A DNA stretch of 64,000 nt. It comes from Gemmatimonadota bacterium. Its GTDB lineage: Bacteria > Gemmatimonadota > Gemmatimonadetes > Gemmatimonadales > Gemmatimonadaceae. How positions within the stretch are numbered: position 1 is the stretch's first letter; every line of letters starts with the position of its first letter. Location of the stretch: positions 1 to 64,000 of the forward strand of contig JAJTGR010000007.1 of the NCBI GenBank assembly GCA_021299375.1. The letters are read 5' to 3'. The notes under the pieces are model-generated. The model had not been told where the DNA came from. It saw nothing but the letters and a program-made list of their open reading frames with translations, and made no database searches. Below, piece after piece: positions 24,310-37,744 of this stretch. The position numbers and the translations under genes were made by a program.

Positions 24310-26892
24310 ATGAAGTCGTTGGTAGCTGCTGGAGCTGGTTGTGCTGCACTGTTGGCGCTGGCCATGCTCGACGGTCCCGAGCGCGAAGTGGCCGCAACGG
24401 CCCGGGCCGCCAGTGACGCGCCGTCCGCGCCCCTTGCCACGGCGTCGTACGACCTGTCGCTTGTGGATGGCACCGCTGGTCGGATGCGGGCCTCGGCCGC
24501 GCGCGCCAGTCACCGCGTCGGTCACCCGGTGCTCACGCCGGCGACGGCCACCATGACGGCGGCGGCGCTCGGCGACGTCGTGAAGAAGACCTGCGCTGGC
24601 TGTCACAGCGATCAGCGCCGGCAAGGCAACCTGTCGCTGCAGAATCTCGACCTCGCCACCATCGGGCAAACCGCGCCCGACGTGGCAGAGAAGATGATCA
24701 ACAAGCTGCGCACCGGCATGATGCCGCCCCCGGGGCGTGCGAGGCCAGGTGGGGACACGCTGCAGATCCTGATGGAGTCGCTGGAGCGTACGATGGATGC
24801 GCGGTATGCGGCCGATCCGAATCCCGGATCCCGTACCTTCCAGCGGCTCAACCGCGCCGAGTACGAGCGCGCCATCCGGGACGTGTTGCTGCTGGACATC
24901 AAGGCCGACGCCTGGCTGCCGCTGGACACCAAAAGCGCCAACTTCGACAACATCGCCGATGTGCAGCTACCGTCGGCGACGCTGCTCGACTCGTATCTCG
25001 ACGCGGCCAGTGAGATCAGCCGCCTCGCGGTGGGAGACCCGAAGGCGAGCGTGTCCACGAGTACCTACAAGATCCCGCGCCTCGCCTCGCAACTCGATCG
25101 CGTGGAGGGGGCGCCCGTCGGCACACGCGGCGGCTCCTCGGTGACCCACACGTTCCCTGCCGACGGCGAGTACGTGTTCACCGTGACGCTGCACGCCATT
25201 CCCACGGGGCAGCTCTTCGCATCCACCGCGCCATTCGACGAAAAAATCGAAGTGTCGGTGAACGGCGAGCGGGTCGCCCTGCTGGATATCGACCGCGGCA
25301 TGTCGCAGGCCGATCCGCAGGGCATGGAGATGCGCACCAAGCCGGTGCCGGTGCGCGCCGGCCCGCAGCGCATCTCGGTGACCTTCCTGCGCACCTTCGA
25401 AGGGCCGGTCAACGACAACATCACGCCGCTCGGGCACAGCATTGCCGACACGCAGATCGGCGCGCAGGCGGGCATCACGGTGCAGGCGCACATTCAGAAC
25501 TTCGCCGTCACCGGCCCGCACAACCCGACCGGCGTCTCCGACACGCCGAGCCGCCGGCGGATCTTCAGCTGCCGCCCGTTGGCGCCGGCCGAGGCGCGGC
25601 CGTGCGCGGAGAAGATCATCGGACGCCTCGGCGCTCAGGCCTACCGTCGGCCCATGGGGGCGAACGACATCAAGGCGCTGATGACCTTCTACGATGCAGG
25701 CGCGAAGGACGGTGGGTTCGAGGTCGGCATCCGGAGCGCCCTCGAGGCGTTGCTGGCCAGCCCGCATTTCATCTTCCGCATCGAGGAAGTGCCGGCGTTG
25801 GCCAAGGGGCGGGTGGCCGTGAACGGACTCGACCTGGCGTCGCGTCTCTCGTTCTTCCTCTGGGGGGCGCCGCCGGACTCGCAGCTGGTGGCCCTCGGGC
25901 GCAGCGGGCGGCTCCAGGACACCACGGTGCTCATCCAGCAGACGAAACGCCTGCTGGCCGACCCGCGCAGCGAAGCGCTCGCCACGCGCTTTGCCGCCCA
26001 GTGGCTGCGCCTGCAGGACATCGACCTCGTGCACCCGGACGCCAACCAGTATCCCGATTTCCGCGAGCAGCTCGCCGACGACATGCGGCGCGAGACGGAG
26101 CTGTTCTTCTACAACCTCGTGCGCGAAAACCGCAGCCTGCTCGACCTCTTCACGGCCAACTACTCCTATGTGAACGAATCGCTCGCGCGGCATTACGACA
26201 TGCCTGGCGTGGTGGGTGACCAGTTTCGTAAGGTCAGGTATCCCTCCGGCTCGCCGCGCAGTGGCATTTTCGGGCACGGCAGCGTGCTGACGCTCACGTC
26301 GCACGCCAATCGCACGTCACCCGTGCTGCGCGGCAAGTGGGTCATGGAAGTGCTCATGGGGTCCCCGCCGCCGCCGCCGGACGTGCCCGACCTGGAGAAG
26401 ACCGGGGAAGCCAAGGAAGGGCGGCTGCTCACCACGCGTGAACGCATGGAGATCCACCGTGCCAACGCCACCTGCAAGTCGTGCCATCAGTTCATCGATC
26501 CGATCGGACTGGCGCTCGACAACTTCGACGTCATGGGGCGCTGGCGCATTCGCGAGAATGGTGAGCCGCTCGACACCCGTGGCGACTTCTACGACGGGAC
26601 GAAGGTGTCGAGCCCCATGGAGCTGCAGCAGGCGCTGCTCAAGCGGCCCGTGCCGCTCATGCGCTCCTTCACGCAGAACCTGATGGCCTACGCCCTCGGC
26701 CGGCGGGTGGAGTACTCCGATGCCCCCGCCGTCCGGAAGATCGAGGCGGCCGCCCGGGCCAACAAGTACCGCATCAACGACTTCATCGTCGGTGTGGTGA
26801 AGAGTGACGCCTTCCGCATGCGCAAGGTCGTTGCCAGCACCGACGTGGCACCTACCAATTCCACTGCACCGGCTGGCAGCCGGGGCCGCTGA
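24310..26892 (+). CDS. DUF1587/1595/1592/1588/1585 multi-domain di-heme cytochrome-like protein
   Basis: An 860-residue exported protein of the type abundant in Planctomycetes and Acidobacteria. After a signal (about 1-20) comes a first heme motif CAGCH (Cys95, Cys98, His99). DUF1587 begins near FQRLNRAEYERAIRDVLLLD, DUF1595 near ARPCAEKIIGRLGAQAYRRP, DUF1592 near DLASRLSFFLWGAPPD, DUF1588 near GSVLTLTSHANRTSPVLRGK, and DUF1585 at the C-terminus. A second heme motif CKSCH lies in DUF1588. The ATG has GGAGG seven bases upstream. The role is unknown; coupling of an extracellular redox reaction to polymer degradation has been suggested for the family. It is followed by the DUF1552 gene after 35 bases. 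Confidence 0.9.
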   Translation: MKSLVAAGAGCAALLALAMLDGPEREVAATARAASDAPSAPLATASYDLSLVDGTAGRMRASAARASHRVGHPVLTPATATMTAAALGDVVKKTCAGCHSDQRRQGNLSLQNLDLATIGQTAPDVAEKMINKLRTGMMPPPGRARPGGDTLQILMESLERTMDARYAADPNPGSRTFQRLNRAEYERAIRDVLLLDIKADAWLPLDTKSANFDNIADVQLPSATLLDSYLDAASEISRLAVGDPKASVSTSTYKIPRLASQLDRVEGAPVGTRGGSSVTHTFPADGEYVFTVTLHAIPTGQLFASTAPFDEKIEVSVNGERVALLDIDRGMSQADPQGMEMRTKPVPVRAGPQRISVTFLRTFEGPVNDNITPLGHSIADTQIGAQAGITVQAHIQNFAVTGPHNPTGVSDTPSRRRIFSCRPLAPAEARPCAEKIIGRLGAQAYRRPMGANDIKALMTFYDAGAKDGGFEVGIRSALEALLASPHFIFRIEEVPALAKGRVAVNGLDLASRLSFFLWGAPPDSQLVALGRSGRLQDTTVLIQQTKRLLADPRSEALATRFAAQWLRLQDIDLVHPDANQYPDFREQLADDMRRETELFFYNLVRENRSLLDLFTANYSYVNESLARHYDMPGVVGDQFRKVRYPSGSPRSGIFGHGSVLTLTSHANRTSPVLRGKWVMEVLMGSPPPPPDVPDLEKTGEAKEGRLLTTRERMEIHRANATCKSCHQFIDPIGLALDNFDVMGRWRIRENGEPLDTRGDFYDGTKVSSPMELQQALLKRPVPLMRSFTQNLMAYALGRRVEYSDAPAVRKIEAAARANKYRINDFIVGVVKSDAFRMRKVVASTDVAPTNSTAPAGSRGR

Positions 26893-26927
26893 CTCACGCT
26901 CGCACCACACCACACGGAGACGCGTCC

Positions 26928-28316
26928 ATGTATTTCTTGAGCGGAAAGGCGATGCCACGCCGCCAGTTCCTGCAGGGGATGAGTGCCACCATCGCGCTGC
27001 CCTATCTCGATGCGATGATCCCGACGGGTCGTCGCGCTTTCGGTGATGCGAAACAGGCGCCGCGCCTGGTGGCCATCGAGATGGTGCACGGCGCCGCCGG
27101 CTGCAACGAGTGGGGCGCCAAGCAGCACCTCTGGTCGCCAGCTGCGGCGGGCCGCCAGTTCGACCTCTCGCCCACGGCGCTCCAGTCGCTGGACTCCTAC
27201 CGCGACTACCTGACCATCATCAGCAACACGGACGTGCGCGAGGCCGAGCCGACGTCGCCCAACGAAATTGGCGGCGACCATTTCCGCTCGAGCGCGACGT
27301 TCCTCACGCAGGCGCACGCCAAGCAGACGGAAGGCTCCGACGTGCGCGTCGGCACGTCGCTCGACCAGCTCTACGCCAGGCGCTTCGGGCAGGACACGCC
27401 CATCCCGTCCATGCAGCTGTGCATCGAGAACGTGGACCAGGCGGGTGGCTGTGCGTACGGTTACGCGTGCGTGTACACCGACTCGATCAGCTGGGCGTCG
27501 CCCACGGAGCCGCTGCCGGTCATCCGTGACCCGCGCGTGGCGTTCGAGAAGCTGTTCGGGGTGGGCGGCACGAGCGCCGAGCGGGCGGAGCGGCGTCGCA
27601 CGCGTCGCAGCATCCTCGACTTCGTGTCCGGTGAGATGTCGTCGCTCAAGGCGGCGCTCGGCCCCGAAGACAAGGTGCGCCTCGATCGGTACATGGAGGA
27701 CATCCGAGAGGTCGAGCGTCGCATCCAGCGCGTGGAAGCCCGCAACCTGAGCGGTGAAGTGCGCGAACTGCCCGAAGCGCCCGCCGGTGTGCCCGATTCG
27801 TTCGCCGAGCATGTGAAGCTGATGTTCGATATTCAGGCGCTGGCCTTTGCCGCCGACATCACCCGGGTGTTCTCGTTCAAGATGGGGCGCGACGGCTCGA
27901 GCCGCACCTACCCGGAGAGCGGCACCGACAAGCCGTTCCATCCGGCCTCGCACCACGGCGGTACCGAGCGTGGCGTGAAGGACTTCAACCTGATCAACAA
28001 GTACCACGTGTCGATGCTGCCGTACTTCCTGGACAAGCTCAAGAGCATTCAGGAGGGCGAGAGCAACATGCTCGACAAGACGATGATCATCTACGGGTCG
28101 CCGATGGGTGACTCGAACCTGCACAACCATCGCCGCTGCCCGCTCATCGTGCTCGGCAAGGCGGAGCATCGCCTCTCCGGCAACCTGCACATCAAGGCGC
28201 CGGACGGCACGCCGATGGCGAACGCCATGCTGAGCATGATGCACACGCTGGGCCTCGAGGAGATGCGCGCGTTCGGCGACAGCAACGGTGTGCTGAACCT
28301 GAACGCCCATGCCTGA
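26928..28316 (+). CDS. DUF1552 protein with Tat-like N-terminus
   Basis: A 462-residue protein. MYFLSGKAMPRRQFLQGMSATIALPYLDAM is a twin-arginine-like export signal. The body matches DUF1552: LVAIEMVHGAAGCNEWG, TIISNTDVREAEP, GGDHFRSSATFLTQAHAK, TSLDQLYA, FSFKMGRDGSSRTYP, HHGG and ESNMLDKTMIIYGSPMGDSN. DUF1552 proteins are nearly always encoded next to DUF1592 proteins, as here, and have an alkaline-phosphatase/sulfatase-like fold relation. The substrate is unknown. Its stop overlaps the ankyrin gene start by eight bases. Confidence 0.88.
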   Translation: MYFLSGKAMPRRQFLQGMSATIALPYLDAMIPTGRRAFGDAKQAPRLVAIEMVHGAAGCNEWGAKQHLWSPAAAGRQFDLSPTALQSLDSYRDYLTIISNTDVREAEPTSPNEIGGDHFRSSATFLTQAHAKQTEGSDVRVGTSLDQLYARRFGQDTPIPSMQLCIENVDQAGGCAYGYACVYTDSISWASPTEPLPVIRDPRVAFEKLFGVGGTSAERAERRRTRRSILDFVSGEMSSLKAALGPEDKVRLDRYMEDIREVERRIQRVEARNLSGEVRELPEAPAGVPDSFAEHVKLMFDIQALAFAADITRVFSFKMGRDGSSRTYPESGTDKPFHPASHHGGTERGVKDFNLINKYHVSMLPYFLDKLKSIQEGESNMLDKTMIIYGSPMGDSNLHNHRRCPLIVLGKAEHRLSGNLHIKAPDGTPMANAMLSMMHTLGLEEMRAFGDSNGVLNLNAHA

Positions 28317-31221: not shown

Positions 31222-32403
31222 TCAGCGGCCCGTCGGCCAGACCACACCCTGACTTCCGCGCGGCACCGCGGCGATGCCACGGTAGCGGAACTTCTGTACG
31301 CGTTTTCCCTCGTAGGTTTCGGTGGTGTAGATGTTGCCCTTCGAGTCGCTGGCAATGCTGTGGACGGCGAAGAACTGGCCGGGCTGGCGGCCGCCGTCAC
31401 CGAACCAGGTGAGCGTCTCGAGCGACTGGCGGTCCATTACGTAGACGCGCTCGTTCTTGCCGTCGGCCAGGTACAGGTACTTCTGGGCGGCGTCGCGCGA
31501 GAAGGCGATGTCCCACACCGAGCCGTCGCCGCGCGTGGCCGGGGCCACCCGTACTTCCTTCACGAACGTGCCGTTCTTCTGGAAGACCTGGATGCGGTCG
31601 TTGGGACGGTCGCACACGTACACCAGCCCGTCGTTCGTGGGCTCGGCGCAGTGCACCGGATTGCGGAACTGCTGGGCCAGCGGTGCCGACGGATCGTAGG
31701 GGGGCAGGCGGGCGTCGTCGGGCTTGTTGCCGTACGCGCCCCAGTAGCGCTTGAGCTTGCCGGTCTGCATGTCGATTACGGCCACGCGCTTGTTGCCGTA
31801 GCCGTCGGCCACGTAGGCCTCGCCGGCCTTGGCGTCGAAGGAGATCTTGGCCACGCGGCCGAAGTGCGTGCTGTCGTTACTGTTGGCGCCCTGCTTTGGG
31901 GTGCCGAACTGCGCCAGGAACTTGCCGTCGTGCGAGAACTTGAGGATGTGGGAGTCGTTACCGCCGTTGCCCCCGATCCAGACGTTGTCCTTGTCGTCCA
32001 CCGACACGCCGTGGTTGGACGAGGGCCACTCGTAGCCGGTACCCGGCCCCCCCCACGCCTTGACGAGGTTGCCGTCGGGGTCGAACTCGAGGATCGGCGG
32101 TGCCGACCGGCAGCACTCTCCCACCGGTGGCGTGGCGTCGGCACCGGCCTCGGTGCGCTGGTTGAGCGTCGAGTCGCCGCGATGGATGATGAAGACATGG
32201 TCCCGGCTGTCCACCCCGACACCGATGACGGAGCCGAGGATCCAGTGATTGGGGAGCGGCTTCGGCCAGAGCGGGTCGACCTCGAACTTCGGGGCCTGCA
32301 CCGTCTGGCGACTGTCGGCCTGCAACGACGCCTGGGCCGCCCCGAGGGCAGCCAGCGCCAGCACCAGCATCGACCAGCGGGTCGACGGACGAAACCTCGG
32401 CAT
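31222..32403 (-). CDS. Secreted NHL-repeat six-bladed propeller protein
   Basis: A 393-residue protein with a signal peptide (about 1-29). NHL-type blades repeat: VIGVGVDSRDHVFIIHRGDS, NHGVSVDDKDNVWIGGNG, RVAKISFDAKAGEAYVADGYGN, VHCAEPTNDGLVYVCDRPNDRIQVF, and AVHSIASDSKGNIYTTETYEGKRVQKF. The pattern resembles the peptidyl-alpha-hydroxyglycine amidating-lyase-like propellers, but enzymatic activity cannot be inferred. A second such protein is at 36683-37744, so the two bracket the HupE-cytochrome/PQQ genes. The ATG at 32403 was chosen because it directly precedes the signal. Confidence 0.82.
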   Translation of the reverse strand: MPRFRPSTRWSMLVLALAALGAAQASLQADSRQTVQAPKFEVDPLWPKPLPNHWILGSVIGVGVDSRDHVFIIHRGDSTLNQRTEAGADATPPVGECCRSAPPILEFDPDGNLVKAWGGPGTGYEWPSSNHGVSVDDKDNVWIGGNGGNDSHILKFSHDGKFLAQFGTPKQGANSNDSTHFGRVAKISFDAKAGEAYVADGYGNKRVAVIDMQTGKLKRYWGAYGNKPDDARLPPYDPSAPLAQQFRNPVHCAEPTNDGLVYVCDRPNDRIQVFQKNGTFVKEVRVAPATRGDGSVWDIAFSRDAAQKYLYLADGKNERVYVMDRQSLETLTWFGDGGRQPGQFFAVHSIASDSKGNIYTTETYEGKRVQKFRYRGIAAVPRGSQGVVWPTGR

Positions 32404-32515
32404 TGCACACTCCGGTCGGGCGGGAACCCGGGAGAGGAACCCGTGTGCAACCCGGGTCCCGGTGGTAAGTTCGAGCAACGGCGGCGATCGCAGGAGGGAG
32501 ACGGTACCGCCGGCC

Positions 32516-34342
32516 ATGGTCTGGACGCGCGCCATGAAGCTACCCGCCCGCTCTCCCCTGTCCAGAGAATCGTTGCGCCTTTTCCGCCTGCCGCGTGCGG
32601 TGCTCCTGCTGTTGGGGCTCGTGTCGCTTGCCCGCCTTGCCCGAGCGCATGAGGTGCCCCGACACGTCGGGGTGCGCGCCTACGTCGCGCCGGCGGCTGA
32701 TCGAGTGCGGCTGCTGGTGCAGATTCCCATGAATGCCGTGCGCGACGTGGACTTTCCACTCGTCGCCAACGACGCGCTCGACATGACGCGCGCCGCTCCG
32801 TATCTGCGCGATGCCGCGCGTCTGTGGGTGGCCGATGGGGTGACGCTGCGTGACGGCGCGCGCGACCTTGGTGCGGCGCAGGTGGTCGCGGTGCGCGCGG
32901 CGCTCCCGTCGGATCGCGCCTTCGAGCAGTACGCCAGTGCGCTGCGCGCCATGCAGGGGGGCGCGCCGCTCGGCCAGGTGGACATCCCGCACGGGCAGCT
33001 GTCGTTGGAAGTGCTGCTCGAGGTCCCGCTGGCCGCTCCGGTACGCGATCTCGTGATCGAACCACGCTGGGCGCACCTCGGGGTGCGTACCACCTCGGTT
33101 GTGCGCCTCGTGAACGGCGACGGCAGCGAGCGGGCTTACCGCTACGAGGGCGACCCGGGCGCGCTGCGCCTCGATCCTCGCTGGTGGCACGCCGCCGCGC
33201 GCTTTGTCCGCGAAGGTATGGGGCACATGCTGGGCGGCATCGATCATGTGCTGTTCGTGCTCTGTCTCGTGTTGCCATTCCGTCAGCGGCGGCCACTCAT
33301 CGGCATCGTGACAGCCTTCACCGTGGCGCACTCCATCACGCTCGTGGCGTCGGCGCTCGGCTACGCGCCTGGGGCGGTGTGGTTCGTGCCGCTGGTGGAG
33401 GTTCTGATCGCCGCATCCATCGTGTACATGGCACTCGAGAACATTCTTGGTCCGCGACTGGAACGCCGCTGGCTGGTGGCCTTCGTGTTCGGCCTCGTGC
33501 ACGGCTTCGGCTTTTCGGCGGCGCTCGGCGACACGCTGCAGTTCGCCGGGCGTCACCTGCTGGTATCGCTGGCGGCCTTCAACGTGGGCGTGGAACTCGC
33601 GCAGGTGGGCGTGCTGCTGCTGGCCGTGCCGTTGCTCGATCGCCTGTTCGCGCGGACGATCCCCGAGCGCGCCGGCATCGTGGTGGCGTCGGCGCTGGTG
33701 GCGCATGAAGCCTGGCATTGGATGACGGCGCGCGGGGCGGAGCTGCAGGCGCAGTCGTTCCGCTGGCCGGTGTTCGACGCGACGTTCGTGTCGGCGTTGC
33801 TGCAGGGGGCGATGGGTGTGCTGTGCCTCGTGGGCGTCGCATGGCTGCTGCAGGGGCTCATGGCGCGTCTCCAACGGGGCGGGGCGCGTCCCGAGGTGGG
33901 CTCGGTGAGCGTGCTGCTCGTGGCCGTCGGCGCGGCGCTCGTGGCTACCAGTGCGCCACTCGACGCGCAGGCGGCCCCGCGCACCACCATGGCGGGTGCC
34001 TATACCGCCGAGCAGGCCGTAAAAGGGCGTGAGGTGTTCAACGGCTCCTGCCTGGGCTGCCACACCACGGCGTCGCATATGGGGCCAGCCTTCCAGATCA
34101 AGTGGTTCGGCCGTCCGCTGTACGACTTGTTCGACTACGTGAGCCAGGCCATGCCGAAGTCCGCGCCCGGCAGTCTCACCGAAGACGAATACGTGTGGGT
34201 CACGGCGTACATCCTGCGCCTGAATGGGATGCCGCCAGGGAAGATCGCCCTCTCGCCGGAACCGGCGTGGCTCAAGGCCGTGCGCGTCGATTCCACCGTC
34301 CGCAACGGGACACGCGAGGGGCGCCCGTCTCGACCACGATGA
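32516..34342 (+). CDS. HupE/UreJ-type membrane protein fused to a cytochrome c domain
   Basis: A 608-residue fusion. After a signal (about 1-45) comes an extracytoplasmic domain (about 46-220), then about seven hydrophobic segments with HupE/UreJ_2 motifs: GHMLGGIDHVLFVLCL, FTVAHSITLVASALG, FGLVHGFGFSAALG and LAAFNVGVELAQVG. The last 100 residues form a cytochrome c: CLGCH (Cys512, Cys515, His516) with a likely axial Met in SQAMPKSAPG. HupE/UreJ proteins are putative nickel/metal transporters; a C-terminal cytochrome is unusual. The PQQ dehydrogenase begins 72 bases downstream, making the heme a plausible electron acceptor. The start is uncertain (32516 or 32534). Confidence 0.83.
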   Translation: MVWTRAMKLPARSPLSRESLRLFRLPRAVLLLLGLVSLARLARAHEVPRHVGVRAYVAPAADRVRLLVQIPMNAVRDVDFPLVANDALDMTRAAPYLRDAARLWVADGVTLRDGARDLGAAQVVAVRAALPSDRAFEQYASALRAMQGGAPLGQVDIPHGQLSLEVLLEVPLAAPVRDLVIEPRWAHLGVRTTSVVRLVNGDGSERAYRYEGDPGALRLDPRWWHAAARFVREGMGHMLGGIDHVLFVLCLVLPFRQRRPLIGIVTAFTVAHSITLVASALGYAPGAVWFVPLVEVLIAASIVYMALENILGPRLERRWLVAFVFGLVHGFGFSAALGDTLQFAGRHLLVSLAAFNVGVELAQVGVLLLAVPLLDRLFARTIPERAGIVVASALVAHEAWHWMTARGAELQAQSFRWPVFDATFVSALLQGAMGVLCLVGVAWLLQGLMARLQRGGARPEVGSVSVLLVAVGAALVATSAPLDAQAAPRTTMAGAYTAEQAVKGREVFNGSCLGCHTTASHMGPAFQIKWFGRPLYDLFDYVSQAMPKSAPGSLTEDEYVWVTAYILRLNGMPPGKIALSPEPAWLKAVRVDSTVRNGTREGRPSRPR

Positions 34343-34414: not shown

Positions 34415-36604
34415 ATGACCAGACGTGGTACCACCAAGTTCGTGGCGCTGGCCTCGATCAGCGCCGGGCTGGCGGGCGTACTGCTGACGCAGGTCGGCAC
34501 GTCGCGCGCGCAGGCGGGCAAGCCGCTCGCCCGTGGCAACGCCTACGGCGAGTGGCGGCACTGGGGGGCCGACCAGTGGAGCACGCGCTATTCGCCGCTC
34601 GAGCAGGTCAACGCCTCCAACTTCGATTCGCTGAAGGTGGCGTGGGAGTGGAAGGGCGGGGCCAAACACGGGCCCGACGAGTACTATCGCACGACGCCGT
34701 TGTACGCGAACGGCCGCCTGTTCACGGTGGTGTCCACCAAGCGGCATGTGGTGGCGCTCGACCCCGAGACCGGCAACGAGCTCTGGTCGTACAAGGTCGA
34801 AGAAGGCATTCGCTGGCAAAAAGCGCCCCGCCAGTTCGCCGGCCGCGGGCTGTCGTACTGGACCAACGGCACGCAGGAGCGCGTGCTGGTGACCACGCCG
34901 GGCTATCACCTGATCTCGCTCGACGCGAAGACCGGCAAGCCCGATCCCGCCTTCGGCAAGGGCGGGAAGCTCGACCTGATGGAGGGCCTCGGCTATCCGC
35001 TGGTGAAGCTTGCCGTGGATGACTCAGGGCCGCTCATCATCTCCGACGCGGCGCCGTATCGCGAGGCGAAGCCGGGAGAAGGATGGGATCCGGTGAAGAA
35101 GATCGGGGCCGACGGCAGCGTGGGCATTCCCAGCCAGATCGCGGCGAGCTCGCCGGCCATGGTGGTGGGCAATGTGCTCATCGTGGGCAACTCGTCCATC
35201 CACGGCTACTACCCCATTCGCGCGTCAAACCCCATCGGCACCATTCGCGCCTTCGACATTCCCACCGGCAAGCTGCTCTGGAAGTTCAATCTCGTGCCGC
35301 AGCCGGGTGAGTTCGGCGCCGAAACGTGGAAGAACGGCTCCAAGCAGGGCACGAAGGGGGTTGGCAAGACCGACGCCTGGGCGCCCTACGCCGCCGACGA
35401 GCAGCTCGGTCTCGTGTACATCCCGGTGGGCATGCCGCTGATGGACGAATACGGCGGCCACCGGCCGGGCGACAACCTGTATGGCAACTCGCTCGTCGCG
35501 CTCGACGTGAAGTCAGGCAAGCGCAAGTGGCACTTCCAGATGGTGCATCACGACATCTGGGACTACGACACGCCGATGGCGCCGAACCTGATGGATGTCA
35601 CCATCGACGGCCGGCTGCGCAAGGTCGTCGCCCAGCCCACCAAGCAGGGCTGGCTCTACGTGTTCGATCGGGCCACGGGTGAACCCATCTGGCCGATGCC
35701 GGAAACGCCCGTGCTCAAGAGCGGGGTGCCGGGGGAGGAGTCGGCGCCCACCCAGCCCATTCCCAGCAAGCCCGCGCCGTACTCGCAGCAAGGGCTCGTC
35801 GAGGCGGACCTCATCGACTACACGCCGGCCATCCGGGACTCGGCGCTCGCGCTGGCGAAGCGGTGCCGCATGGGACCGTACTACATCCCGCCGGCCGCGG
35901 CCGACGGCAAGGATGCGAGCGGGTACCGCTGCGCGTGGTACGCACCCGGGGCGAGCGGCGGCGTGAACATCGACGGGGGCGCCACGCACGATCCCGAGAC
36001 CGGCATGATCTACGTGGCCTCGATCACCGGGCTGAGCACCACCACGCTGCTCAACGATCCGTGCTCGGAGTTCGCGTACAGCTCGCCGGCCAGCAACTGC
36101 GGGCTGATCGGCGCCCTTCCCGCGCCCGCCGGCTACAAGAAGCCGGAGAACGTGGGCTTTGCCGGTCGGGCGTCGGGCTCGATGATCGGGGGCATCTCGA
36201 TCGCCAAGCCCAAGGAGTACGGTGGCATCACGGCGTACGACATCAAGACCGGTGACAAGACGTGGTGGGCGCCCAACGCGGGCTACATCAAGCAGACGAG
36301 CCGCGACCCGCTCTTCGCGGGTGTGACACTGCCGCCCTTGCCCGGACGCGGTCAGGCGCAGGCGATCACCACCAAGTCGCTGTTGATCTACGGCACCGGC
36401 CGAAGCGGTGGCCTGCCCGGTGAGCCGCCGAAGCTCTACGCGGTGGACAAGAAGACCGGGAAGCAAGTGGGGGCGGTACAGATCCCGAGCAAGACCACCG
36501 CGGTGCCCATGACGTTCCTGCACAAGGGCCGCCAGTACGTCGTCTTCGCCACCGGCGCCGAGGGCGACGTGAGCCTCGTGGCCCTCGCCCTCCCGCGCAA
36601 GTAG
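34415..36604 (+). CDS. PQQ-dependent dehydrogenase (quinoprotein, glucose/alcohol dehydrogenase-like)
   Basis: A 729-residue periplasmic enzyme with a signal peptide (about 1-33). PQQ-propeller blades are evident: RTTPLYANGRLFTVVSTKRHVVALDPETGNELWSY, HLISLDAKTGKPDPAFG, PIGTIRAFDIPTGKLLWKF, KQGWLYVFDRATGEPIWPMP, and GGITAYDIKTGDKTWW. VHHDIWDYDTPMAPNLMD is typical of the membrane-type glucose dehydrogenase group. There is no membrane domain or heme of its own, so electrons probably go to the neighbouring cytochrome fusion. AGGAG lies ten bases before the ATG at 34415. No pqq biosynthesis genes are in the window. Confidence 0.9.
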   Translation: MTRRGTTKFVALASISAGLAGVLLTQVGTSRAQAGKPLARGNAYGEWRHWGADQWSTRYSPLEQVNASNFDSLKVAWEWKGGAKHGPDEYYRTTPLYANGRLFTVVSTKRHVVALDPETGNELWSYKVEEGIRWQKAPRQFAGRGLSYWTNGTQERVLVTTPGYHLISLDAKTGKPDPAFGKGGKLDLMEGLGYPLVKLAVDDSGPLIISDAAPYREAKPGEGWDPVKKIGADGSVGIPSQIAASSPAMVVGNVLIVGNSSIHGYYPIRASNPIGTIRAFDIPTGKLLWKFNLVPQPGEFGAETWKNGSKQGTKGVGKTDAWAPYAADEQLGLVYIPVGMPLMDEYGGHRPGDNLYGNSLVALDVKSGKRKWHFQMVHHDIWDYDTPMAPNLMDVTIDGRLRKVVAQPTKQGWLYVFDRATGEPIWPMPETPVLKSGVPGEESAPTQPIPSKPAPYSQQGLVEADLIDYTPAIRDSALALAKRCRMGPYYIPPAAADGKDASGYRCAWYAPGASGGVNIDGGATHDPETGMIYVASITGLSTTTLLNDPCSEFAYSSPASNCGLIGALPAPAGYKKPENVGFAGRASGSMIGGISIAKPKEYGGITAYDIKTGDKTWWAPNAGYIKQTSRDPLFAGVTLPPLPGRGQAQAITTKSLLIYGTGRSGGLPGEPPKLYAVDKKTGKQVGAVQIPSKTTAVPMTFLHKGRQYVVFATGAEGDVSLVALALPRK

Positions 36605-36682: not shown

Positions 36683-37744
36683 CTACTTCTTCTTTTCGTA
36701 GCGCTTGAGGGCGCGCTGCCCGACTTCGGCGCCGTAGATGTTGCCGGCGGCATCCACCGCCACGCCCTCGGCGGAGCTCGTGTTGGCCGGCTTGGTCTCG
36801 GGGTCGGGGATGAACGCCGTCACCTCACCCGTCCGTGCGCTGCCGATGCGGATGCCGCGCATCCACGCCCCGTGCGGCGGGTTCACCGAGCCCGACTCCG
36901 AGTCGGCCGAGTAGAGCACGTCGTTCTTGTCGATCCAGAGCCCGCTTGCGCGGCTGAACTGGTACCACGTGTCGAGTACCGTGAAGTTCGCGTCGACGAT
37001 CAGGATGCGGTCGTTGCCGCGATCGGCAATGAACAGGCGGCCGCGCGAATCCATGGCCAGCGCGTGCGGCTGGTCGAGCTGTCCATCGCCCTTGCCCCAG
37101 CTGCCCCACGTGCGCTTGAGCGTGCCCGCCTTGTCGAACACGAGGATCCGTGCCGTGGACCCGGCGCGCGACGAGTGGCCCTCGGCCACGTAGATGTCAC
37201 CGTTGGGCGCGGTGAGCACCGCGTTGGGCTGCCAGAAGAACAGCGAATCGCGCCCGCCGCCGGGTGTGCCCAGCGTCATCAGCACCTCACCCTTCGGCGA
37301 GAACTTGACGATCTGGTGTCCCTTGCCGGCATAGGCCGGTGTGGACGAGGTGCCGGTGCAGGCGCAGTCCACCACCCACACGTTGCCGTCGCGATCGACG
37401 TGAATACCGTGAGGCGAGAGAATCAGGCCCGTGCCGAACGATGCAACCAGCGTGCCTTTGTCGTCGAACTTGAGAACCGGCGGCAACGGCGAGCCCCCGC
37501 ACGAGTTGGCGCCACAGCGTTCGGCCACCCAGATGCTCTTGCCGTCCTTGTCGATGGCAACGGCGCTCGTGGAGCCCCAGGGGCGTCCTTCGGGGAGTTT
37601 GGCCCAGCCTTCGACGGTGCGGTACGGGTTGGGGCGGTCATTCACCGGCGGCATGGACGGCGAGGACTGGGCCGGCGCGGTGGGCCACGGCGCGAGGCCG
37701 ACGATGGTGGCCGAGAGAACGGCGGGCAGAAGAGTGCGTCGCAT
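36683..37744 (-). CDS. Secreted NHL-repeat propeller protein (second copy)
   Basis: A 353-residue protein with a signal peptide (about 1-25). Blades are visible: SAVAIDKDGKSIWVAERCG, PHGIHVDRDGNVWVVDC, PNAVLTAPNGDIYVAEGHSS, PHALAMDSRGRLFIADRGNDRIL, ASGLWIDKNDVLYSADSESG, and EGVAVDAAGNIYGAEVGQRALKRY. This is a complete six-bladed NHL propeller like the one at 31222-32403. A Cys-rich patch (CGANSCGG, DCACTG) could form disulfides. It is 180 bases downstream of the porin stop and may have its own promoter. The function is unknown. Confidence 0.82.
   Translation of the reverse strand: MRRTLLPAVLSATIVGLAPWPTAPAQSSPSMPPVNDRPNPYRTVEGWAKLPEGRPWGSTSAVAIDKDGKSIWVAERCGANSCGGSPLPPVLKFDDKGTLVASFGTGLILSPHGIHVDRDGNVWVVDCACTGTSSTPAYAGKGHQIVKFSPKGEVLMTLGTPGGGRDSLFFWQPNAVLTAPNGDIYVAEGHSSRAGSTARILVFDKAGTLKRTWGSWGKGDGQLDQPHALAMDSRGRLFIADRGNDRILIVDANFTVLDTWYQFSRASGLWIDKNDVLYSADSESGSVNPPHGAWMRGIRIGSARTGEVTAFIPDPETKPANTSSAEGVAVDAAGNIYGAEVGQRALKRYEKKK

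Follow-up and report, generated by a model that had tools for sequence, protein, structure and literature searches.

A HupE/UreJ-type metal permease and a cytochrome c in one reading frame beside a PQQ dehydrogenase in Gemmatimonas, with a predicted internal signal peptide between them

FbcH of Bradyrhizobium is a cytochrome b/c1 precursor made as one chain, in which an internal signal peptide preceding the cytochrome is cut by signal peptidase. Here we describe a locus in which a membrane protein and a cytochrome c again share one chain, with a putative internal signal peptide before the cytochrome; the proteins joined are different ones, and cleavage, demonstrated for FbcH, is predicted for this locus. 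The membrane half of the chain resembles the anglerase HupE/UreJ-2 (Ang-1/Ang-2). The Ang-1 domain of anglerase binds Cu(II), and such domains have been proposed to supply the permease with captured metal ions (PMC12537917). Both proteins begin with a signal peptide, have an invariant His at the start of the mature chain, and continue with a beta-sandwich and a HupE_UreJ_2 domain. The protein described here differs in coming from another phylum, in its low sequence identity and in its C-terminal cytochrome c, and its metal binding is predicted.

The gene directly downstream encodes a secreted PQQ dehydrogenase, for which two known types offer a comparison. Its propeller is 31% identical to that of E. 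coli Gcd and retains the HHDxWDxD and PxKxG motifs, which we take to carry the catalytic Asp and Lys. However, aligned with Gcd it lacks the N-terminal membrane part, and a cytochrome gene adjoins it. Without this domain, the direct electron transfer to ubiquinone known from Gcd is probably beyond this enzyme. It also has no CxxCH, and the preliminary description of this DNA was correct in stating that the adjoining quinoprotein has neither heme nor membrane anchor of its own. The profile of the glucose/quinate membrane type (TIGR03074) gave 328 bits against a cut-off of 832.65, which places the enzyme outside that family and leaves it a PF01011 quinoprotein only. MoxG/cytochrome cL and the type II quinohemoprotein alcohol dehydrogenases offer the other comparison, a small CxxCH cytochrome beside a PQQ dehydrogenase without its own heme. 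Unlike in those systems, the cytochrome of this locus falls outside the MoxG family (TIGR03872, 11.8 bits against 147.8, E 0.2) and is joined to a permease and not to the dehydrogenase.

Our best explanation of the locus, to which as a whole we assign a probability of about 0.55, is one polypeptide of two joined modules in which an internal signal exports the cytochrome and the precursor is probably cleaved. The first module would be a metal-capture domain beginning with His, set on a HupE_UreJ_2 metal permease, and the second a small periplasmic cytochrome c accepting electrons from the adjacent PQQ dehydrogenase. In Gemmatimonas, and in a small number of lineages besides, the stop codon between the HupE and cytochrome genes would have been lost. 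We infer topology, cleavage and electron transfer in the fused protein as follows: the seven HupE helices would end in the cytoplasm, and what was once the cytochrome's signal peptide would act as an internal export signal that carries the chain back across the membrane. Heme would be attached in the periplasm, and signal peptidase would split the precursor, releasing the cytochrome from the metal permease.

Layout and distribution of the fused frame

In the window, by which we mean the whole stretch of 64,000 nucleotides analysed, the features run within a single open reading frame from signal peptide through His-first periplasmic domain, HupE_UreJ_2 domain and internal hydrophobic segment to cytochrome c (Table 1). 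The domain search that the preliminary description had proposed as a check placed both main domains above cut-off: HupE_UreJ_2 (PF13795) at residues 230-376 (E 1.7e-40, 138.7 bits against 24.5) and Cytochrome_CBB3 at residues 500-566 (E 1.1e-8, 35.7 bits against 27). The fusion of a HupE/UreJ-type protein to a cytochrome c reported there is thus borne out as one frame with a Pfam match to each half, although the periplasmic domain at its N-terminus had gone unmentioned.

Table 1. Features of the locus, with positions in the window
Feature	Position	Strand	Remarks
Fused ORF, HupE + cytochrome c	32516..34342	+	608 aa; translation, Pfam; ATG to stop codon; ATG at 32534 an equally likely start
N-terminal signal peptide	32516..32647	+	residues 1-44; end RLARA^HEVP; sequence inspection
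Periplasmic beta-sandwich, anglerase-like	32648..33181	+	residues 45-222; AlphaFold2, Foldseek, H45 invariance
HupE_UreJ_2 membrane domain	33182..33877	+	residues 223-454; 7 predicted helices; HX5DH H237/D243/H244
Predicted internal signal peptide	33878..33973	+	SPase-I-type site LDA^QA or AQA^AP, residues 482-487
Cytochrome c domain	33968..34339	+	residues 485-608; Cytochrome_CBB3
CxxCH of cytochrome c	34049-34063	+	C512, C515, H516 (residues 512-516)
Probable axial Met M546	34151-34153	+	ligand role inferred
Secreted PQQ dehydrogenase, mGDH-like propeller	34415..36604	+	PF01011 E 4.3e-156; lacks heme and N-terminal membrane domain; frame open from 34349, likely start ATG 34415
NHL1, six-bladed NHL propeller, PAL-like	31222..32406	-	constant HupE neighbour, nearly always divergent
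NHL2, second NHL propeller	36683..37744	-	convergent with PQQ gene; frequent, not constant neighbour

Conserved ligand-type residues are present in both halves. The C-terminal domain combines the Cytochrome_CBB3 profile with a CxxCH and a conserved distal Met, as in class I cytochromes c, and C512, C515, H516 and M546 were invariant across 21 aligned fused homologues. In the HupE half, H45, H237, D243 and H244 of the HX5DH motif, H272, H329, H347, E360, H397 and H401 were invariant in the 21 fused sequences. His45 follows the signal peptide directly; in the homologues inspected this peptide ends in A/G/S^H[ED], and the His was also present in the split homologues inspected. An AlphaFold2 model built with 21 homologues (mean pLDDT 80.9) consisted of a beta-sandwich at residues 45-222, seven membrane helices and the cytochrome. 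Among PDB entries it matched the Cu-bound Ang-1 domain (9gce) best, with a Foldseek E of 8.2e-4 and, by VIA, a Z of 10.7 and an rmsd of 3.1 across 135 residues. Sequence and model together give the HupE half the appearance of a complete metal-capture permease.

Another 26 genomes carry the fused frame, at 46-70% identity to the window protein; single-contig assemblies (4.64, 4.72 and 5.18 Mb) are among them, which rules out a frameshift or assembly error. An uninterrupted open frame through both domains was found in 26 genomes, including that of the window, among 395 Gemmatimonadota genomes: 21 belong to the genus of the window, Gemmatimonas, two each to genera g12 and g8, and one to g24. A fragment at a contig end (G112) was also fused, giving 27 fused Gemmatimonadaceae genomes in the sample. 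In the other Gemmatimonadaceae genera sampled, HupE and cytochrome c were mostly adjacent separate genes. The preliminary description had allowed that homologues might be two separate genes with a frameshift in this sequence; the separate genes do exist in other genera, but the frameshift does not exist here.

Outside the phylum, our coverage comprised one Acidobacteriota class, plasmids and a pattern-based scan of species genomes. In that scan, 12 Gemmatimonadota loci matched over nearly the full length (one, L010, interrupted by Ns) and three Acidobacteriota loci matched in HupE only. No fusion was found outside Gemmatimonadaceae among 119 genomes of the Acidobacteriota class, where no listed HupE match reached the cytochrome part, and none of 429 plasmid records covered 80% of the query. 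A phage origin of the locus was rejected, as there was no PHROGs match. A literature search found no paper describing this domain combination, which has apparently not been reported before.

A tree of 60 HupE sequences (quick method, SH-aLRT support) required five changes between the fused and split states, at least three of them forced by well-supported branches. By this tree, the fusion is placed as having arisen at least three times. It came about from neighbouring genes, and it should not be taken to prove a joint function of HupE with the PQQ enzyme.

Gene units that meet in the fusion

We inspected about 40 gene neighbourhoods, and the fused or split state and gene order were known for about 80 loci. 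The usual order was NHL1 on the minus strand, then HupE, cytochrome c and the PQQ dehydrogenase, all on the plus strand, often followed by NHL2 on the minus strand. In most Gemmatimonadaceae genera sampled, the three central genes were tightly packed in the same direction. Fused loci had been selected solely through their match to the HupE query; in each of the 23 whose downstream sequence reached far enough, the PQQ gene followed after 0-135 bases. The association with a PQQ dehydrogenase, which the preliminary description had wanted checked in other genomes, thus had no exception where it could be seen. The split loci had been picked for holding a PQQ orthologue, and their PQQ adjacency therefore carries no statistical weight of its own.

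In some loci the order was broken. The cytochrome gene remained directly upstream of the PQQ gene where HupE was convergent to the pair (L014-L016), where HupE lay elsewhere in the genome (L072, L074) and where HupE was not found (L085). Conversely, the same HupE gene occurred across Gemmatimonadota and in Acidobacteriota without an attached cytochrome or PQQ enzyme, and all 15 sampled HupE loci that had no cytochrome or PQQ neighbour had NHL1 nearby, divergent in 14. Since the cytochrome tracks the PQQ gene and HupE tracks NHL1, we recognize two units, cytochrome with PQQ enzyme and HupE with NHL1, and the fusion unites one member of each. The position of the cytochrome directly upstream in 23/23 fused genomes and in split genomes supports its proposed role as the partner of the PQQ dehydrogenase. 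This would name a likely electron acceptor for a PQQ enzyme that is widespread in Gemmatimonadaceae.

As HupE occurs with neither partner attached, it has a function of its own, independent of both. The suggestion in the preliminary description that the HupE part is a redox module or mere anchor is not supported, given this distribution and the retained ligand-type residues. A coupling of the two halves, in which electrons from the PQQ enzyme would pass through the attached cytochrome to reduce a metal on His45 and HupE would import the reduced ion, would amount to metal uptake powered by the oxidation of sugars or alcohols. Both domains are expected on the periplasmic side, Ang-1 of anglerase binds Cu(II) (PMC12537917) and the fusion always adjoins the PQQ enzyme where this can be checked. 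However, HupE is widespread without an attached cytochrome or PQQ enzyme, the cytochrome-PQQ pair stands without HupE nearby in L085, and the linker described below suggests separation. We regard such coupling as barely credible.

The open reading frame of NHL1 extends to a first ATG at 32535, which is too far upstream as a start because Met44, at about 32406, is where its signal peptide begins. The best match of the NHL1 model was rat peptidyl-alpha-hydroxyglycine amidating lyase (PAL; 3fvz), and the PAL profile also aligned over the full length. We take the metal and catalytic positions of PAL to be HRGD, HG, DGY, DR and the last His; most of these aligned with invariant NHL1 residues, with one His offset by one. 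In the window and in L102-L116, NHL1 and HupE_UreJ_2 form a conserved pair of PAL-like propeller and metal permease. A copper monooxygenase partner for the PAL-like NHL1 was considered and dropped, as a PF03712 search of its own genome, run without a positive control, gave no match.

Further upstream in the window, at 24310-28313 on the plus strand, lie genes for a DUF1592/1588/1585/1595/1587 protein and, after it, a DUF1552 protein and an ankyrin-repeat protein. Gemmatimonas genomes have this group at a conserved place ahead of the cluster, and two Acidobacteriota loci (L014, L015) have it nearby.

Supply of PQQ

A profile search for PqqC gave no hit in the genome of the window or in any genus member listed; 19 of 200 phylum genomes above cut-off served as the positive control, the search of the own genome alone being without one. 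For PqqE, none of the 30 genus genomes reached the cut-off of 381; scores did not rise above about 78 bits, which generic radical-SAM proteins also reach. The genome of the window does encode a TonB-dependent receptor (L096, C21:49493-51466) with 26-27% identity to E. coli PqqU. Residues 99, 304 and 365 form the PqqU signature, and Gemmatimonadetes are among the main carriers of PqqU (PMC12124388). The receptor has F99, R304 and R365 at these positions, and also Q84, K274 and R536, and is a candidate PqqU-like PQQ importer. As PqqC and PqqE went undetected and a PqqU candidate is present, the PQQ dehydrogenase probably works with scavenged PQQ, and the pattern is that of a PQQ scavenger as far as PqqC, PqqE and PqqU cover it. 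In no listed Gemmatimonadota genome does a PqqC above cut-off seem to be accompanied by a close orthologue (>900 bits) of the PQQ dehydrogenase.

The junction between permease and cytochrome

All 21 fusions had the same plan at the junction: basic residues (Arg) after HupE, then 14-24 uncharged hydrophobic residues, then an A-Q dipeptide. Because the N-terminal signal is cleaved and seven helices follow, the C-terminus of HupE is expected in the cytoplasm, and a hydrophobic segment that follows such a domain and ends in a conserved signal peptidase I motif is the arrangement of FbcH. The site was located by rule and by inspection. At least one [AVSTGIL]xA site was present in each linker. The A-Q dipeptide was found in 21/21 linkers, a figure that is partly by construction, as this anchor was sought within a 27-residue stretch, and that does not represent 21 independent observations, because the fused sequences are related. 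The linker was otherwise the least conserved part of the protein, with 26% identity against 51% for the Ang-like domain, 61% for HupE and 63% for the cytochrome.

We compared this motif with signal peptides of the same organism, using about 460 kb of the genome of the window. The pattern [AVSTGIL]xA-Q followed an N-terminal hydrophobic segment in 22 of 74 secreted-like proteins versus 27 of 840 windows taken at random (Fisher p 4e-13), and by this enrichment the linker motif resembles the organism's own cleavage sites. These numbers come from a count of c-regions; an earlier rule-based signal-peptide finder gave too few matches and favoured AQA^ over A^Q. The N-termini of split cytochromes are hydrophobic in a similar way and lead into comparable sites. 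In some fused sequences, one of the two candidate positions for cleavage has an unfavourable residue at -3, which is Leu in the window. Since the signal-peptidase site has been kept, the precursor is expected to be cut, and given the fusion we consider it probable that signal peptidase I cleaves the linker.

If the fusion were left uncut, the hydrophobic segment would serve as an eighth transmembrane helix tethering the cytochrome to a normal HupE permease, where it would serve the PQQ enzyme as membrane-bound acceptor. A stretch of 14-24 hydrophobic residues is long enough for a membrane anchor, the topology permits it, and the fusion has persisted across a whole genus. However, the cleavage-type A-Q motif is retained in linkers that are otherwise variable, and the split cytochromes carry the same kind of segment and site. 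AlphaFold2 gave the segment a low-confidence helix of 16 residues (462-477), with 477-487 also at low confidence, versus 22-33 residues in most HupE helices. We therefore hold an uncut tether to be unlikely. Of the membrane-bound acceptor put forward in the preliminary description, the cytochrome as partner of the PQQ enzyme stands, while its permanent tethering is doubtful, given the signal-peptidase-type site retained in the linker.

The cytochrome might also be translated separately from an internal start in the region of Met449 (MARLQRGG) and secreted beside the fusion. AGGG precedes an ATG that lies 36 codons ahead of the cleavage motif and opens MARLQRGG, with the hydrophobic stretch behind it; L003 is similar. 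However, L042 has no candidate, and in several other sequences no candidate has a Shine-Dalgarno-like stretch. A conserved internal translation start was rejected on these grounds, as the combination of candidate ATG and Shine-Dalgarno-like stretch is not conserved, and we consider separate translation very improbable.

Cleavage of a single precursor remains the reading that we prefer. Repeated loss of a stop codon between packed genes, together with a kept signal peptide, is consistent with a nearly neutral fusion that the cell reverses once the protein is made. A kept internal signal peptide would thus explain how the fusion of unrelated proteins is tolerated, as signal peptidase may reverse it post-translationally.

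Secreted-like proteins of Gemmatimonas (L117-L136 and the window) often had Gln at +1 of signal-peptidase sites. A 'Q-rule' has been described as specific to Bacteroidetes, in a paper that does not mention Gemmatimonadetes (PMC5837995), and the Gln-at-+1 pattern of the Gemmatimonas sites resembles it.
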